Virus record (IMG/VR): IMGVR_UViG_3300046533_000756
Location: 1 to 29,452 of that record
Origin: a virus
DNA: 29,452 nt
Reading direction: 5' to 3' (one strand)
Shown here: positions 2 to 18,334 of the stretch, one piece after another
Position numbering within the stretch: position 1 is the stretch's first letter
Layout of the letters: every line of letters begins with the position of its first letter
Translations under genes and position numbers: made by a program
The notes under the pieces: generated by a model
What the model saw: only the letters and a program-made list of their open reading frames with translations
Database searches by the model: none
What the model was told of the DNA's origin: nothing

Positions 2-3000
2 TCCTCCCACTTCGACGAGCCCAACATCCTCGCGCACGTCCGCTTCGATGACCGCACCGATGCTAATGGCAAGCGGGTGCTGATGGTGGAGGAGGTCCAG
101 AGCGATTGGCACCAGACGGGTAGACAGAAGGGGTATGTCTCGCCTGAAACGAAGACTCAATATCTTATTGTAGGGAAGCGCAACGGCAGCGTTTACAGAC
201 AATTCGATACACGCGCTGAGGCAGAGGCGCGCATTCAGCAGTTCGACGAATTGACACGCGATGGTCTTGTGATTGAGGAGCGTACCCGGCCAGCGCAGAA
301 TGCCGGCGGCGTCCCCGACGCACCTTTCAAAACCACATGGCCGGAACTGGTGATGAAGCGCATGGTTCGGTACGCTGCCGAGAATGGCTACGACTCGGTG
401 GCGTGGACTACGGGAGAGCAGCAGGCGAAGCGGTACAATCTGGCGAATCATGTGGACACGCTCTACTGGATTCCGGAAACCGGATCGATCTCCGCGTCGA
501 AAAACGGCGAGGAGGTATTCACGAAAGACGACGTCACTCCCGGAGATTTGGCGGATATTGTTGGCGTCGAAATAGCGAGGAAACTGATCAGCAATCCCAC
601 GGCGATCACCAAAAACCAACACGACGAAACACTTCACGTACTCAATGGCGTCGATATGAACGTGGGTGGCGAGGGCATGAAAACCTTCTACGACGAATTC
701 CTCCCACGCACCATGGAGAAGCTCGGCAAGAAGTATGGGGCTGAGGTGGGGAAGACGACGCTGCAGGGAGGCACTGGCAGATACGAGGTCACGAAAGCTG
801 GCGACGGCTGGTATGAGGTGCGGGACTTCAATACTGGCAAGGTGGTCGAATCGTTCCAGCTGAAAGGTCAGGCGCTGGAATGGATGAAACGGAACCCTCC
901 TGTAAGTATTGAACAGCCCGTCCACAACATGCCGATCACCGAGTCCATGCGTGAGGCCGCGATGCAGCAAGGCTTCCCGCTGTTCCAAGGCAAGGAGAAA
1001 ATCCCTCGTGGTTCGACGGTGTTCAATGCCGATGGCACCATCAACATGAACCTGTTTGCTCGGGCGGATCTCAGCACGTTCCTCCACGAAACCGGCCATA
1101 CGTTCCTCGGCATCATGGGAGATCTTGTCGACGATCTGAAGACGCGTGATCCGGAGAATCTCTCTGTCACTCAACAGCAGATGGTTAAGGACTGGAATGC
1201 CATCCTGCGTTATCTGGGCGTCGACTCCCGCGCTGACATTGGCGAGGATCAGCACGAGAAGTTCGCCAAGAGTTTCGAGGCCTACCTGCGCGAGGGTAAA
1301 GCGCCATCGATTGAAACCCGGTCGATGTTTGCCACATTCAAATCATGGCTCGTGGGTCTCTATGCAGACGTCAAGCGGCGGCTGGGAGTCGAATTGAATC
1401 CCGAGATCCGCGATGTGTTCGACCGGATGATTGCCACCAGTGAGGCGATCGACGCCGCCAAAGCGGAGGCAGAGATCACGCAGCTGTTCCTGACGCGGGA
1501 CGAAGCGCCGACGATGTCGGATATAGAGTGGGTGGCCTACCAGAAGAAAGCCATCGAGGTCACACAAAAGGCCAAGGATGCTCTGGAGTTGAAAGCCCTG
1601 CGCGACTACCAGAAGCAGCACGCCAAATGGTGGAAGGAGGAGGAGGCCGCGGTTCGTGTGGATATTGCCCGCGATATCGAGAGCCGTCCGGAATACCAGG
1701 CGCTCCACGCGCTGAAGAACAACACGGCGCCGAACGGGGAGCCGCTGAACATTCCTCCGGTAAAGCTCGATCTCAACATCATCAAGCAGATGTTCGGCAA
1801 GAAGTCTCCCATCGTCGAGCAGGTCAATCGTCTGGGAATTGCGCGCCTGGATGGCGGTATCGATCCCGATCTGATCGCCCGCCGGTATGGCTATTCCTCC
1901 GGCCAGGAACTGGTGGAGGCGTTGGTCGGGGCCCGGCCCATGGATCCGCTGATCGACGCTGAGGCCCATCAGGAAATGATCCGCCGGCATGGCGACATCG
2001 CTGTGGACGGCACCGTACATGATCAGGCCCGGTCGGCAGTGATGGGCAAGTACCGCGACGACGTCGTCCGGCTGGAGATGAAGGCGCTGATCGACCAGCA
2101 GAAGGCGGCCCGGCCGTCTGTGCTGGCAGAACGCGAACGTCAGGAGGCGGAACGGGCATACGAGCGGCGCTGGTTTGAAGCGGAGGCCAAACTCAAGGTT
2201 GCCATCGCGGAAGGCCAGAAGCAGGCCGTCATCGATTCGTTGACAGCGGAGGCGGCCAAGGCGCGGGCGGAACAGATCGCGGCGCGTCGGGGCTTCCTGA
2301 AGGATCTGCGGGCGGGCCAGGCAATCCCCACGGCGGATCAGCTGGAGCGGATTGCCGAGGACCAGCTGGCGGACACGCGTGTCGGTGACGTCAATCCCTC
2401 GCGGTTCTGGTCGGGGGCGCGCAAGGCCTCGCGGGTGGCCATCGAAGCCACAGCCAAGGGCGATCTCACCGGAGCCATCAAGGCCAAAGGGCAGGAGCTC
2501 CTGAACCTGGAGCTCTTCCGGCAGGCCACTGAGATCCGCAAGACGCTGGCGGATGCGCGCGAGAAGGCGCTCAAGATGTTCAAGCCGGATGCCAAACTCG
2601 AAGCCACTCGCGAGATGGATCTGGTCAACGCGGCCCGGGCGATCGCGGCACACTACCTGTTCCCCGACAAGGCCTCCCGGGTCCAGCAGGCCCTGGATCT
2701 GCTCAAGGAATACGATCCGGAGCGCCATCAGGACGTGCTCGACCGCCTGCCGGTACTCATGAATGACGGTCGCGTTCTGCGCGATCTGACGGTTTCCGAG
2801 TTCAAGGGCGTCATGGATATCATCGACGAACTGTGGACCTCGTCCCGGCGCGAGAAGCAATTGCTGATCGAGGGGCGGCTGGTCCAGGCCAACCTGGTGC
2901 GCGACGAGCTCCGCGCCCGCATGGACAAGTTCAAAGGCGGTTGGAACAAGTACCGTACGGATCACGGCCACACGAAGTGGGAGACAGTCTCAGGCATGCG

Positions 3001-5056
3001 GGCGGTTCTCCGGCGGATTGAATCCTGGACGGTGGCGATGGACGGTGGTCCCGATGGTCCATTCCGCAAGTACATCTGGGATGTGCTCGATGGACCTGAC
3101 GCGGAGTATCGCATCAAGCGGCTCGAGTTTTTGCTGCGGAACGATCAGAGCCTGGAGCCGATCCGGGAGCGCCTGACCAATACCAAGATCCCGGCCGCCG
3201 AGATTGGCTACACGTTCAAGAACCATTCGGAGTTGCTCGGGTTCCTCACGCATATCGGGAACCGCGAAGGACCGACGTCGAACTACTGGAAGCTGGTTCG
3301 CGGTGGCCGTGGTCCGGAGGGTGCAGAGTGGGGGCGGATCCGCGAGGATGGAACGCTGGACGACACCAAGGTCCAGGCCATGCTCGACCGGATGATGTCG
3401 GATGGCACCATCGTCAAGGCGGATCTCGACTACGTCCAATCGCTCTGGGATCTCTTCGAGGATCTCAAGCCCGGGCTTCAGGCCTCGCACCGGGAGATCA
3501 AGGGCAGTTACTTCAACGAGGTCACCGCCACTCCGTTCACGACGCCGTGGGGCGACTACCGCGGGGGGTATGTGCCGGCCAAGGCGGATCCGATCCTGTC
3601 GGAGGAGGCGGGGATCCAGGACATCAAGCGGGTGGTCGGTGAATCCAACAACAGTTTCTCCCTGCCGGGCACAGGCAGCGGCGCCACCAAGCAGAGGGTG
3701 AACGTGGCGCGGCCGCTCCAGCTGGGACTCGGCTATGTTCCCAGCCACATCGACTGGGCGCTGAGGTACACGTACTTCGAACCGCGGGTGCGGGACATCT
3801 ACCGGCTGGTGAAGGATAAGGAATTCACCTACGCCATGAAGGATCTGGATCCGTCGTTCATGCAGCGGGCCCTGATACCCTGGCTGCGAAGGGTCGCTAC
3901 TCAGCGGATCGCGGAGATGGGGCTGCATGCCGGCCTGATGGATAAACTCCTCAATGGACTCCAACGCGGCGCCGCGATGAATACCCTGACTCTGTCGGTC
4001 ACCAACGCGCTCCACCAGCTGGTCGGCATTCCCATCGCAAAGACCCACCTTCCGATGTCGGCGTTACTGGGTTCGACCATGCACATGATGGTATCTCCCA
4101 AGGAGGCTTTCGGGCGCGCGCACGATCTCTCCTCCTACATGAGGATGCACAATTCTACCGAGACGGCAGACTTGATCCAGGACTTCAAGCACTCGATCGA
4201 AGTGGCGGGCGCTGTCGAGCGCGGTGTGGATTCGCTCCAGCGCCACGGGATGATCCTGCGCCGGATCACGGCTGGCTTCGTGGAGACGATGGTCTGGAAC
4301 GCGGGGTATGACAACGCCAAGGCCCATAACCGGACCAACGAGCAGGCGGTGCGGGATGCAGACAGTATCGTGCGGCAGACGCAACACGCCACCCGGCCGA
4401 TCGATGTCGCGGCTTACGAGTCCGGCACTCCGCTGGTGCGCCTGATGCTGATGTTCTCCTCGTGGTTCAACAACGTCGGCAACAACGCGGCCACACAAAT
4501 TGGCAATGCCTGGAGGTCGGACGCGCCACTGTACCAGCGCGCCGGCCGTGCGGTCTCGATGTACACGTTCGGCATCATGCTGCCCTCGGTGATGGCGCAG
4601 GCGATCCTGAACATGGTCCATGGGCACTGGAAGGACGATGACGAGTCCGACCTGATGGCGGCATTCGATCTGGTCATCGGATCGCAGTTCAAGATGGGGA
4701 CGGCGATGATACCGGGCTTCGGCCAGGCGCTGAACGTCTTCGCCCAGGCGGCGACCGATATCAAAAAACCAGAGGTCGATGACATTCGTCTCTCGCCCAC
4801 GATCTCGATGACGACGGCGGCGGCCGCGGCGCTCCACAGTGCGGTCAAACGGGATGTGACCAGCGGCACCTACGAGGTCCATGGCAAGGAGATCAGCGAC
4901 ACTCTGAAGTTCATCGGGATGCTGTCGAAACTCCCGCTGGGAGTGCTCGGGAGTCCCGCACGATTTCTCAAAGATATTTCGGATTTCAAAGCATTTCCCC
5001 AGGGTCCGGGGGATTATGTCCGTGGTCTGATTTCGGGGTCGATTCCAAAACGATGA
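2..5056 (+). CDS. Giant internal-virion / DNA-ejection protein with metallopeptidase motif (5' partial)
   Basis: The reading frame is open from base 2, 25 codons before the first internal ATG (77), and that upstream part (a HFDEPN block followed by an EEVQSDWH block) matches large polyvalent phage proteins, so the gene starts left of the window. At least 1,684 residues are visible. Numbering from the ATG at 77: an N-terminal large-polyvalent-protein region with a GVPDAPFK and AWTTGEQQ segment (about 75-120); a zincin-type HETGH motif at 337-341 (bases 1085-1099), followed by an EKFAKSFEAYLREGKAP segment that could supply the third zinc ligand; a long Glu/Lys/Ala-rich helical middle (about 480-950); and a C-terminal part with hydrophobic stretches (near YTFGIMLPSVMAQAI). 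Proteins of this type are internal head or ejection proteins of podoviruses. The ejection role is inference from size, architecture and position; peptidase activity is inferred from the motif only. Confidence 0.8.
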   Translation, partial: SSHFDEPNILAHVRFDDRTDANGKRVLMVEEVQSDWHQTGRQKGYVSPETKTQYLIVGKRNGSVYRQFDTRAEAEARIQQFDELTRDGLVIEERTRPAQNAGGVPDAPFKTTWPELVMKRMVRYAAENGYDSVAWTTGEQQAKRYNLANHVDTLYWIPETGSISASKNGEEVFTKDDVTPGDLADIVGVEIARKLISNPTAITKNQHDETLHVLNGVDMNVGGEGMKTFYDEFLPRTMEKLGKKYGAEVGKTTLQGGTGRYEVTKAGDGWYEVRDFNTGKVVESFQLKGQALEWMKRNPPVSIEQPVHNMPITESMREAAMQQGFPLFQGKEKIPRGSTVFNADGTINMNLFARADLSTFLHETGHTFLGIMGDLVDDLKTRDPENLSVTQQQMVKDWNAILRYLGVDSRADIGEDQHEKFAKSFEAYLREGKAPSIETRSMFATFKSWLVGLYADVKRRLGVELNPEIRDVFDRMIATSEAIDAAKAEAEITQLFLTRDEAPTMSDIEWVAYQKKAIEVTQKAKDALELKALRDYQKQHAKWWKEEEAAVRVDIARDIESRPEYQALHALKNNTAPNGEPLNIPPVKLDLNIIKQMFGKKSPIVEQVNRLGIARLDGGIDPDLIARRYGYSSGQELVEALVGARPMDPLIDAEAHQEMIRRHGDIAVDGTVHDQARSAVMGKYRDDVVRLEMKALIDQQKAARPSVLAERERQEAERAYERRWFEAEAKLKVAIAEGQKQAVIDSLTAEAAKARAEQIAARRGFLKDLRAGQAIPTADQLERIAEDQLADTRVGDVNPSRFWSGARKASRVAIEATAKGDLTGAIKAKGQELLNLELFRQATEIRKTLADAREKALKMFKPDAKLEATREMDLVNAARAIAAHYLFPDKASRVQQALDLLKEYDPERHQDVLDRLPVLMNDGRVLRDLTVSEFKGVMDIIDELWTSSRREKQLLIEGRLVQANLVRDELRARMDKFKGGWNKYRTDHGHTKWETVSGMRAVLRRIESWTVAMDGGPDGPFRKYIWDVLDGPDAEYRIKRLEFLLRNDQSLEPIRERLTNTKIPAAEIGYTFKNHSELLGFLTHIGNREGPTSNYWKLVRGGRGPEGAEWGRIREDGTLDDTKVQAMLDRMMSDGTIVKADLDYVQSLWDLFEDLKPGLQASHREIKGSYFNEVTATPFTTPWGDYRGGYVPAKADPILSEEAGIQDIKRVVGESNNSFSLPGTGSGATKQRVNVARPLQLGLGYVPSHIDWALRYTYFEPRVRDIYRLVKDKEFTYAMKDLDPSFMQRALIPWLRRVATQRIAEMGLHAGLMDKLLNGLQRGAAMNTLTLSVTNALHQLVGIPIAKTHLPMSALLGSTMHMMVSPKEAFGRAHDLSSYMRMHNSTETADLIQDFKHSIEVAGAVERGVDSLQRHGMILRRITAGFVETMVWNAGYDNAKAHNRTNEQAVRDADSIVRQTQHATRPIDVAAYESGTPLVRLMLMFSSWFNNVGNNAATQIGNAWRSDAPLYQRAGRAVSMYTFGIMLPSVMAQAILNMVHGHWKDDDESDLMAAFDLVIGSQFKMGTAMIPGFGQALNVFAQAATDIKKPEVDDIRLSPTISMTTAAAAALHSAVKRDVTSGTYEVHGKEISDTLKFIGMLSKLPLGVLGSPARFLKDISDFKAFPQGPGDYVRGLISGSIPKR

Positions 5057-15940: not shown

Positions 15941-16141
15941 ATGGCAAAGCTGTCACCGACAATTCAATCAATTAAAGACGAAATGGAAAAGCGCGACTGG
16001 AACGCAATGAAGCTGGCTGAGGAGTCCGGCCTTAATTTCCAAACCGTGTACCGCGTGTTCAGCGGAGAGTTTGTTCCGAACCTGGCCATCGTCGAGAAGA
16101 TGGCGTGGGCGCTGGGCTGGCGTGTGCTGGTGAGACGGTGA
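15941..16141 (+). CDS. Cro/CI-type helix-turn-helix regulator (66 residues)
   Basis: A compact XRE-family protein: helices spanning TIQSIKDEMEKRDWNAMKLAEE, the turn SGLN and recognition helix FQTVYRVFSG, then a conserved tail PNLAIVEKMAWALGWRV. At 66 residues it is just the DNA-binding domain, like Cro. It heads the rightward early genes opposite the leftward operon, the classic place for a switch regulator. No CI-like partner with a cleavable domain is visible, so it may act alone. The ribosome site is weak. Confidence 0.85.
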   Translation: MAKLSPTIQSIKDEMEKRDWNAMKLAEESGLNFQTVYRVFSGEFVPNLAIVEKMAWALGWRVLVRR

Positions 16142-16525: not shown

Positions 16526-16731
16526 AACGCACTTCCTACTATTGCCCGTCCTGCCCAGTGGACCTGTCTGAGCTCAACCTGTTTGAACGTCTCGCCCACC
16601 TGCGCTACCACGCCAACGGACCAACATGGAAACCGGTGGCCAGCCAGGACGTCAAGCCGGATCCGGCGGGGGATCTCAATGACTCCCGCGGGGAGACCCA
16701 ACAGGCACATATCGGATGGAGGATGTATTAG
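16522..16731 (+). CDS. Small C2H2-like zinc protein (69 residues)
   Basis: N-terminus YYCPSCPVDLSELNLFERLA is followed by HLRYH: CxxC...HxxxH spaced like a C2H2 zinc finger. The rest is polar and probably disordered. Start overlaps the membrane gene (ATGA); the stop TAG shares a base with the GTG start of the replication gene. A DNA-binding accessory role is plausible from the finger alone. Confidence 0.55.
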   Translation: MKRTSYYCPSCPVDLSELNLFERLAHLRYHANGPTWKPVASQDVKPDPAGDLNDSRGETQQAHIGWRMY

Positions 16732-17756
16732 TGTACCGAACGCTCGACGCTTCATTCTGGACCGATCCCAAGGTCCGCAGTTTGAATCCATCTGGAAAGC
16801 TGGCACTGCTTTACCTGATCACGAATCCACACAGTCACGTCTCGGGAATCTACGTACTCCCACGGGCATACGCTATCCACGACACGGGGCTGGATGGCCC
16901 TACGCTGGATACCCTATACGATATCCTATCCAAGCTAGGAATCGGTAGTTTCGACCGGGAAAACGAGGTCGTGTGGGTGGTGAACATGCTCTCCTACCAA
17001 GGTCGAGGCGAAAAGAACCTCCGCAGTGCGGCCAACCAACTCTCAACACTCCATAACTCCAGTATCATCACCGACTTCCTGATTCGGTATCCAAAAGTTA
17101 AGCAATACGTGTCCGATACGGTATTGGATAGGGTATCCGCAGTTGGCACTCCGAACAGGAACAGGAACAGAACAGGAACAGAAGGGGAGAGGGAGGGGGA
17201 TCCGGGGGAACCACTCGCGCTCATCCGGCCTGAGGACTTTACGGGATTCGGTCCCGACATCCCGTTTGCGGGACCGACAGATCTCCAGAAAATGCTTTAC
17301 GGGGACGATGCTCCACCCGTGACGCTGATGGTGGATCACCAGCCCGAGGTCGGCAAGAAGCGGGCCCGGCAGATACCGGAGGATTTCAAAGTCACGGCGG
17401 TCATGCGGGAATGGGCAGCCAGCCAGGACCTGCACGTCGATCTGGATCTCGAGACCGCCCGCATGATCGACCACTTCAAGGCCAACGGGGAACCGAAGGC
17501 GGACTGGATCGCCACCTGGCGGAACTGGATCCGGCGGGCGCCGCAGTTCAATGGCAACGGGAATGGGAACGGCCGTAAGGATCAGACCAAGGCTCCTGCC
17601 ATCGAGCATCCCGACCATGAGGCACACCCCACACATTTCTGCTCCGACTGCAACGAGGCCCATGCCTGGACGTGTGAGAACTTCGGTCAGCCCGTCCGGT
17701 GTGGCAGTCCCACACACAGCGCCTGTCCCAAATTCGCAGCGAGGTTTAAACGATGA
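16731..17756 (+). CDS. Replication initiator / replisome organizer-type protein
   Basis: A 341-residue protein. Residues 1-100 match the N-terminal winged-helix domain of phage replication proteins (FWTDPKVRSLNPSGKLALLY, HVSGIYVLPRAYA, a helical YDILSKLGIG and VVWVVNMLSYQG). A low-complexity linker (NRNRNRTGTEGERE) joins this to a DnaT/DnaD-like C-terminal part (LPEDF-type PEDFKVTAVMREWAA... then KADWIATWRNWIRRA), followed by a Cys/His cluster (FCSDCNEAHAWTC, RCGSPTHSACPK) likely to bind zinc. Start GTG 16731 is preferred (GGAGG 8 nt ahead); an in-frame ATG at 16716 also exists. It probably loads helicase at the origin. See the repeats noted inside the gene. Confidence 0.75.
   Translation: MYRTLDASFWTDPKVRSLNPSGKLALLYLITNPHSHVSGIYVLPRAYAIHDTGLDGPTLDTLYDILSKLGIGSFDRENEVVWVVNMLSYQGRGEKNLRSAANQLSTLHNSSIITDFLIRYPKVKQYVSDTVLDRVSAVGTPNRNRNRTGTEGEREGDPGEPLALIRPEDFTGFGPDIPFAGPTDLQKMLYGDDAPPVTLMVDHQPEVGKKRARQIPEDFKVTAVMREWAASQDLHVDLDLETARMIDHFKANGEPKADWIATWRNWIRRAPQFNGNGNGNGRKDQTKAPAIEHPDHEAHPTHFCSDCNEAHAWTCENFGQPVRCGSPTHSACPKFAARFKR
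16907..17215 (+). other. Candidate replication origin inside the initiator gene
   Basis: Within the initiator coding region: GGTATCC-type heptamers at 16907-16913 (as GGATACC), 17086-17092 and 17132-17138; an 11-bp inverted pair GGATACCCTAT (16907-16917) and ATAGGGTATCC (17128-17138); then five GAACAG hexamers (17153-17181) running into an A/G-only tract of about 20 nt. The stretch up to about 17150 is AT-richer by eye than the rest of the gene. Lambda-type phages keep the origin with iterons inside the initiator gene at the interdomain linker, the position seen here. Not proven. Confidence 0.4.
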
Positions 17757-18334
17757 TCCTCAACTTCACCATGCCCGGCGATGTTCCCAGCTTGAAAAAT
17801 TCCAACGGCATGAACCGCCGCGGTCAACGCTTCGACAACGACGAAGTGAAGGTCTACAAGCGGGATTTCTTCTACAAGCTGGCCAAGGAATTCCACTGCA
17901 AGTACCTGGGCAACAAGGCAGGGCTTCTCGGCTGCATCATCCGCATCTACCACCGGGACTGGCGCCGGGACGCCGATGTCGAAATCATTTACGACTGCCT
18001 GCAAACCGCCGGCGTCGTGCTCAACGATCGATGGATTCGTAACAAGCTCGTGCTGGGAGACCTGCTCGACGCCGACAATCCTCGTGCCGAAATCACACTC
18101 TTCACTCTCGGAGACTCTCATGAAAATATCGCGTTACTCGATCTGGCCAAACAGCTGCTTGGGGCCATTCGTCCTATGCGCTCTCGTGCCGTTGATCTTA
18201 GCGGCTGGGTGCCTTCACCGGGTAAAATCGAATTCGTCCCAGCCGGTAGCGGACCAAGCCCTGATGGAACGCTCCCAACTGGGAAACGTCCACGCCAACA
18301 TCGTGGCGTTCGACGCCTACCTGAAGGGGCTTAA
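17753..18334 (+). CDS. rusA: RusA-like Holliday junction resolvase
   Basis: The ORF has 193 codons. Residues 1-120 are RusA-like: VPSLKNSNGM at 11-20, HRDWRRDADVEIIYD (Asp73, Asp75, Asp81) and CLQTAGVVLNDRWIRN (Asp92), matching the metal-binding aspartates of RusA (Asp70, Asp72, Asp91 in E. coli). RusA resolves Holliday junctions using magnesium; in phages it clears branched DNA before packaging. Start overlaps the initiator stop (ATGA). Residues after about 122 are Arg/Pro/Gly-rich and look like an out-of-frame reading of the lipoprotein gene that begins at 18120. The real protein may end near there if a frameshift is present, or carry this odd extension. Confidence 0.8.
   Translation: MILNFTMPGDVPSLKNSNGMNRRGQRFDNDEVKVYKRDFFYKLAKEFHCKYLGNKAGLLGCIIRIYHRDWRRDADVEIIYDCLQTAGVVLNDRWIRNKLVLGDLLDADNPRAEITLFTLGDSHENIALLDLAKQLLGAIRPMRSRAVDLSGWVPSPGKIEFVPAGSGPSPDGTLPTGKRPRQHRGVRRLPEGA

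Follow-up and report, generated by a model that had tools for sequence, protein, structure and literature searches.

A candidate replication origin, built of phased dyads and a T-every-third-base tract, inside the gene of a DnaD-like phage initiator

The gene for a DnaD-like replication initiator on a viral DNA record of 29,452 bases is likely, on comparison of its sequence with relatives, to contain a phage replication origin. The stretch analysed, referred to here as the window, is the complete IMG/VR virus record IMGVR_UViG_3300046533_000756, which is probably a fragment of a genome. Inside the gene, 11-bp dyads are followed by GAACAG hexamers and a purine-rich tract. These repeats exceed chance expectation; their layout recurs in relatives, does not depend on the reading frame and is accompanied by biased codon choice. 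We put at roughly 70% the probability that the segment is a phage origin at which dyads acting as iterons receive the initiator, and a neighbouring tract with T at every third base of one strand (TnnT) is opened and captured. Origins lying within genes are a kind already known. An earlier note on this DNA had proposed a candidate origin at 16907-17215, in the same relative place as the lambda origin in gene O, with low-complexity linker coding as the alternative. Conservation in the one close relative and the layout in distant relatives, from which we infer the origin itself, favour the former, since linker coding alone predicts no frame-shifted layout, whereas iterons and tract are read in other frames in some relatives.

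The initiator gene (16716..17756, plus strand) falls by sequence match within the family of DnaD-like phage helicase loaders and initiators: residues 6-128 of its product match phrog_1701 (phage DnaD-like helicase loader; E=1e-21) and residues 145-294 match phrog_1408 (replication initiation proteins; E=1.8e-10). No Pfam family was matched by the window protein, neither the DnaB_2 or DnaT C-terminal domain nor RepA_N, and among 38 aligned members (the window protein and 37 relatives) DnaB_2 was found in 5 and DnaT in 2. Structure prediction with AlphaFold2 on this alignment gave a winged-helix N-terminal domain (residues 5-142, plus strand 16728..17141; pLDDT about 90 or more, with winged-helix matches), a linker that is mostly predicted to be disordered (residues 143-227, plus strand 17142..17396; low pLDDT over most of its length) and a C-terminal helical domain (residues 228-281, plus strand 17397..17558; high pLDDT, with matches to phrog_3992 and phrog_1032). 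Predicted disorder starts at residue 149. Compared with solved structures, the N-terminal domain resembles winged helices generally, including those of transcription factors, and plasmid Rep N-domains weakly (structures 5kbj, 4pql and 4pt7; Foldseek E 0.13-0.21, Z 6.1-6.3); among predicted viral structures the best match is a replisome organizer (E=7e-9). Profile searches of solved structures returned no credible match, and a DnaD single-strand-binding tail was not identified in this protein. Elsewhere in the window, an XRE-type gene lies upstream of the initiator at 15941, the next gene downstream (17753-18334) has a sub-threshold match to a RusA-like resolvase (E=0.32), and the structural part holds a 1659-residue open reading frame (ORF) that begins with GTG (77-5056).

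The GGTATCC-type heptamers described previously are present (GGTATCC at 17086 and 17132, GGATACC at 16907), and the 11-bp inverted pair 16907-16917/17128-17138 is an exact match. This pair extends to 24 bp, its plus-strand left arm at 16907..16930 being 83% complementary to the right arm at 17115..17138. The repeats are better described as 11-bp dyads, GATANNNTATC, of which the heptamers are halves, and the inverted pair is one tandem pair of dyads facing another. Seven dyads with no more than one mismatch lie in the gene: single-mismatch copies at 16867..16877, 16908..16918, 17081..17091 and 17115..17125, exact copies at 16920..16930 and 17127..17137, and one beginning at 16915 that overlaps its neighbours. 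Codon shuffles, which preserve the encoded protein, contained 0.82 dyads on average and at most 5 among 5000 shuffles, so that repeated sites within the initiator gene, as sought for an embedded origin, exceed coding expectation; the rest of the window outside this gene has only three further dyads. Two pairs, begun at 16908 and 17115 and completed by the exact copies, are spaced exactly 12 bp, an arrangement matched by 0 of 3000 codon shuffles. One loose resemblance to a DnaA box was seen near 16873.

Downstream of the dyads, the five GAACAG hexamers start at 17153, 17159, 17165, 17170 and 17176 (17153..17181, plus strand), one unit being a base short so that the series slips by one base after the third copy. 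Codon shuffles contained 0.43 hexamers on average and at most 4 in 3000. On the minus strand, a period-3 run scan finds T at every third base over 17154..17183, seven times and then, after a register shift made by the five-base unit, five times more; this run starts 17 nt after the last dyad, so that more than the minimal two TnnT motifs stand on one strand beside the presumptive initiator sites. The A/G tract said to follow the hexamers is also there, as a G-rich purine stretch at 17182..17215 on the plus strand, with purines making up 78.5% of 17151-17215. Within it, the coding strand at 17182-17209, unchanged in the close relative, is rich in G, with several blocks of that base, and might form a G-quadruplex. 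The earlier note had placed all of the repeats in linker-coding DNA, which is true of the hexamers and purine tract (17151-17215, residues 146-167) and not of the dyads, which lie in the part encoding the folded N-terminal domain, residues 5-142. It had also judged the region up to 17150 to be richer in A+T than its flanks; the difference is real and mild, with 50% over 16907-17150 against 42% before and 38% after, at the 94th percentile of the window. GC skew over the record is uninformative for an origin, because the record is a 29-kb fragment and the skew tracks gene direction.

Only one close relative was found, the viral contig L001, whose protein is 86% identical to the window initiator. 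Over 497 aligned bases of the 5' half of the gene the two differ at 23; none of these differences falls on the 48 core dyad positions and one lies in a dyad spacer. The 100 bases at 17113-17212, in which the final pair of dyads, the GAACAG units and the purine tract as far as 17212 are found, are unchanged. For this single pair of sequences, the pattern is consistent with constraint on dyads and tract. Immediately after the purine tract, the window (17213 onward) and L001 (after 1785) enter an unalignable stretch, beyond which near-identity returns; judged from this alignment, the break at the tract is a recombination boundary.

An exact search with the 17-mer AACAGGAACAGGAACAG matched at least 120 viral loci, and family scans of these loci covered 185 of 218 ORFs. 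With the tracts masked, 44 of the loci and the window formed one blast-linked initiator cluster. Among the 44 listed, the tract lies on the coding strand in 42 and on the opposite strand in 2; the 42 read it as QE (34) or GT (8), and the window reads NR. In the pairs L030/L040, L009/L024 and L016/L052, about 20 upstream bases are common to both members and are read in different frames. Since 76 of the at least 120 loci fall outside the initiator cluster, with unrelated proteins among them, the 17-mer alone is not diagnostic. One ten-member cluster (L012, L018, L035, L041, L084, L092, L095, L097, L105 and L110) consists of other phage proteins, unrelated to initiators, that carry the same hexamer as GTGTG. 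The initiators at L064:5498-6544 and L118:5722-6717 and those of L195 and L196 have an inverted tract, read PVPVPV or PAPAPA, in which the strand with T at every third base is the coding strand.

A wider sample of initiators was collected with five N-domain profiles, the best 80 loci or fewer being retained per scan. Groups A4 and A5 (viral) and A6 (titled bacterial genomes) supplied 224 best-scoring loci, of which one was dropped and from which deduplication at 90% left 182 genes; groups A7 and A8 (viral) supplied 160 loci, whose 160 ORFs were reduced to 87 genes by removal of near-duplicates. The sample thus comprises 269 deduplicated initiators drawn from the best loci per profile. The queries for A4-A6 were N-domains of tract-bearing loci, and these groups may therefore be enriched in tracts, whereas those for A7 and A8 came from blast matches of the window protein. 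Of the 269 genes, 221 have a period-6 tract with a score of at least 12. Being a multiple of 6, period 12 gives similar scores; 0 or 1 genes reach the cut at periods 4, 5, 7, 8 and 10, and 31, 26 and 20 genes at periods 3, 9 and 15. The period-6 score rises above all 30 codon shuffles in only 94 of the 269 genes, with no excess in group A5, so dipeptide repeats carry most of this signal and the case rests instead on frame, codon choice and the periodicity of A. Tracts are built of CAGGAA-like hexamers in A4-A6, of GAAAAA-like and AATGAC-like hexamers in A7 and of GAAAAA-like hexamers in A8; their purine content has a median of 0.83, with only 6 of 221 below 0.5, and repeat numbers vary widely between relatives. 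Thirteen of 14 named phages have a period-6 tract, the exception being Citrobacter phage Chris1, and the genes that follow the initiator in named phages include DnaC-like loaders, DnaB-like helicases and primase/helicases. Contig JAHFTW010000006.1, labelled Thermoplasmata archaeon, has the initiator at two places (L309 and L310); the archaeal label could stem from mistaken binning, or the element may be present in duplicate.

The coding strand of these tracts has A at every third base, and the other strand therefore reads TnnTnnT. Such A runs of at least 8 occur in 242 of the 269 initiators, compared with 38 of 635 neighbouring ORFs (the others of at least 150 codons in the same loci). The contrast holds in every group, the longest run has a median of 14 over all groups, and in A7 and A8, which were not seeded from tract-bearing loci, 78 of 87 genes have a run of 8 or more. 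Runs of C, G or T at every third base show no such excess in the 269 initiators over the 635 neighbours. When T runs are counted as well, 245 of the 269 reach 8, leaving 24 with neither an A nor a T run of that length. The window initiator's own longest A run is 7, too short for this cut, and a second ORF in the window reaches the same length. Some PEPEPE and SPSPSP tracts, including the SPSPSP tracts of L190, L192 and L194, keep a period of 6 but lack both A and T at every third position.

In most sampled genes the A stands at the second codon position, which yields Q, E, K, N and D residues; a linker rich in these residues would also put A there. Independence of frame is seen in 18 of 142 CAG-type tracts, in the pairs read as QE and GT, and in the window. 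The second and fifth bases of CAG-type repeats are A in 648 of 648 cases while the fourth and sixth vary, and only the fifth-base A is independent evidence because CAG was the search criterion. Seventeen CAG tracts are shifted by one, so that A comes to the third codon position and the peptides are GT, VT and GA; four-fold degenerate codons end in A in 186 of 190 cases within them, against 363 of 2723 elsewhere in the same genes. Codon choice also sets tracts apart from the rest of the gene for CAG (649/726 v 931/1442) and, in A7, for AAT among Asn codons (155/156 v 574/925) and for GAC (69/108 v 266/939). In GAAAAA tracts, adjacent A registers make the codon phases of the A runs ambiguous, and these phases were excluded from the frame evidence. 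In A4, the tract is in phases 0, 1 and 2 in 48, 10 and 1 genes, and the upstream consensus is alike.

Iterons accompany these tracts. Group-specific motifs, differing from group to group, exceed their codon-shuffle counts three- to fifteen-fold (221 v 32, 101 v 34, 291 v 68, 135 v 11 and 50 v 3); copies most often stand 11 bp apart in A4, A5 and A8, as against 12 bp in A6 and A7. The iterons usually adjoin the tract, the layout being at the same place in the gene in relatives; in A7 (L360-L439) they lie 3' of the tract in about half of the genes (24 v 21). Copies in A4 are distributed over the three codon phases as 93/56/72, and since 11 is not divisible by 3, the frame downstream changes whenever an A4 iteron is added or lost. 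Three or more dyads of the window type occur in 13 of 30 A8 genes and in none of the 182 A4-A6 genes. The window initiator looks chimeric: its dyads are like the iterons found in Geobacillus E2-type phages (A8), whereas it has a CAGGAA-type tract and a C-terminal module whose best matches are to proteins of the CAGGAA groups.

Because the phage proteins are DnaD-like, the simplest model is one in which the initiator docks at iterons, the tract opens and the T strand is captured. The winged-helix N-terminal domain would bind the GATANNNTATC iterons, about one helical turn apart, and this binding would open the neighbouring hexamer and purine tract. The DnaD-like portion of the initiator, or else a partner loader, would keep hold of the exposed T strand (TnnTnnT), its recognition as a single strand being suggested by analogy with bacterial DnaD, and the replicative helicase would be loaded at the opened tract. 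The linker peptide would then be largely a by-product of origin DNA. We give even odds to a broader proposal, that many DnaD-type initiators from phages of several bacterial phyla share one mid-gene code, consisting of phased iterons and a T-every-third array read single-stranded, which is kept while frame, hexamer and peptide change, so that the origin dictates the linker sequence; this would be a viral counterpart of the bacterial DnaD recognition element. If it holds, such origins could be recognised from sequence alone, and to our knowledge few phage origins have been mapped so far; a rule of iterons plus TnnT array would place origins in many phage genomes at once. It would also tie initiation in phages to the DnaD element of Bacillus, a strand-specific one described recently, and the QEQEQE, EKEKEK, NDNDND and GTGTGT linkers found in replication proteins of phages would be accounted for as side effects of DNA function. 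A search of the open literature, which lacks most subscription journals, yielded no account of a frame-independent TnnT array or of a hexamer array in the initiator genes of phages.

Several other readings share part of the evidence. The origin could lie in the gene with the iterons doing the work, the tract serving only as an unwinding or spacer stretch and not as a TnnT recognition element; any strand-asymmetric, weakly structured and easily opened DNA would then suffice, like the purine-rich region of the lambda origin. The high purine content of the sampled tracts agrees with this, as do the almost wholly one-stranded purines of the lambda opening region (PMC5043065), the period-3 A runs of only 6 in lambda O and TP901-1 rep, and the PEPEPE and SPSPSP tracts that lack A or T at every third base. 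We nevertheless regard it as unlikely: a purine bias leaves unexplained a period of 3 confined to A and the wobble A that appears after a frame shift, and CAGGAA tracts are not AT-rich. More improbable still is that there is no origin and the tract is a microsatellite in a disordered linker, where slippage expands the hexamer, any hydrophilic peptide is tolerated and descent spreads the result. Widely varying repeat numbers and predicted linker disorder would be expected of a microsatellite, most of the period-6 signal is indeed that of dipeptide repeats, and the 17-mer recurs in unrelated proteins; what slippage does not account for is the neighbouring iterons, the A at every third base in unlike hexamers, the codon bias and the wobble A of shifted frames.

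The divergence of the window from L001 directly after the tract, together with A8-like dyads joined to a C-terminal module like that of CAGGAA-group proteins, would suit a tract that marks the boundary at which N- and C-terminal modules are exchanged and that recombination keeps uniform. As the whole explanation this is very improbable, leaving aside as it does the iterons beside the tract and the same A register of different hexamers across groups; it is compatible with an origin, because an origin between modules would be a swap point anyway. Least credible is that the dyads are operators of an autoregulating initiator or of a repressor. Dimeric regulators typically bind palindromic 11-bp sites like these, the winged-helix domain resembles transcription factors and an XRE-type gene stands upstream, but the sites lie 150-420 bp inside the gene, beside the tract, and relatives keep this layout at the same place. 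CTG is the site of Escherichia coli DnaG primase, and the sites in Firmicutes are CTA/TTA. A primase array, in which CAG repeats place CTG every 6 nt on the other strand, was dropped as a general explanation because GAAAAA and AATGAC tracts lack CTA/TTA sites. Reading the A strand as DnaA-trios fits some tracts by eye, such as that of Tenacibaculum phage JQ, and does not fit CAGGAA tracts; the trio consensus consists of repeated T/A-A-G/A triplets (as quoted in PMC10797057), and the window tract departs from it, its A-register triplets being, by inspection, mostly CAG and GAA.

The favoured reading, an origin of iterons and TnnT tract within the initiator gene, can be set against systems already described. 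Like the lambda origin in gene O, the window has presumptive iterons inside an initiator gene that adjoin a strand-asymmetric, purine-rich stretch; in lambda this opening region has almost all of its purines on one strand (L524; PMC5043065). Unlike the window, with its 11-bp dyads at 12-bp spacing, lambda has iterons of 19 bp and an opening region that is A+T rich, and the period-3 A run of gene O is only 6; no O-like family, the sign of a lambda-type origin, is among the matches of the window protein. TP901-1 rep also has an A-every-third run of 6, below the cut of 8. The putative origin annotated in phage 80alpha covers repeats and a tract whose runs are of 9 A's and 11 T's, and loss of ORF20 is not complemented in trans, which suggests that the origin lies in the ORF20 gene (PMC5499656). 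As in 80alpha ORF20 and SPP1 gene 38, the putative origin of the window lies within the gene for the initiator and includes repeats together with an opening region; the repeats themselves differ from those of both.

A plasmid and a bacterial chromosome offer the other comparisons. In the staphylococcal plasmid pSK41, of the RepA_N type, the origin is in the middle of rep, the linker encoded there is dispensable and the protein resembles DnaD; the N-domain of Rep recognises boxes located centrally in rep itself, a layout comparable to that proposed for the window (PMC5703833). Four repeats in pSK41 rep lead into a period-3 run of 13 T's; none of the 14 coding regions measured has a longer T run, although A runs reach 15 in other genes of the plasmid. 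The origins of 80alpha and pSK41, both in genes for proteins of this kind, agree with the proposed model. In contrast to the window, this T run is on the coding strand and the repeats are others, and the window protein has no RepA_N match. In Bacillus subtilis, DnaD binds single-stranded DNA through pairs of TnnT on one strand of an oriC element; less DnaD is recruited when one TnnT is mutated, and at low temperature initiation is reduced as well. The element as quoted has T at every third base (PMC10201434). As in this DnaD Recognition Element, one strand of the window tract has a T in every third position, and initiator boxes, putative ones in the window, lie alongside. The B. subtilis element is chromosomal and stands with DnaA boxes and DnaA-trios, whereas that of the window is predicted and lies inside a phage gene, beside phage iterons.
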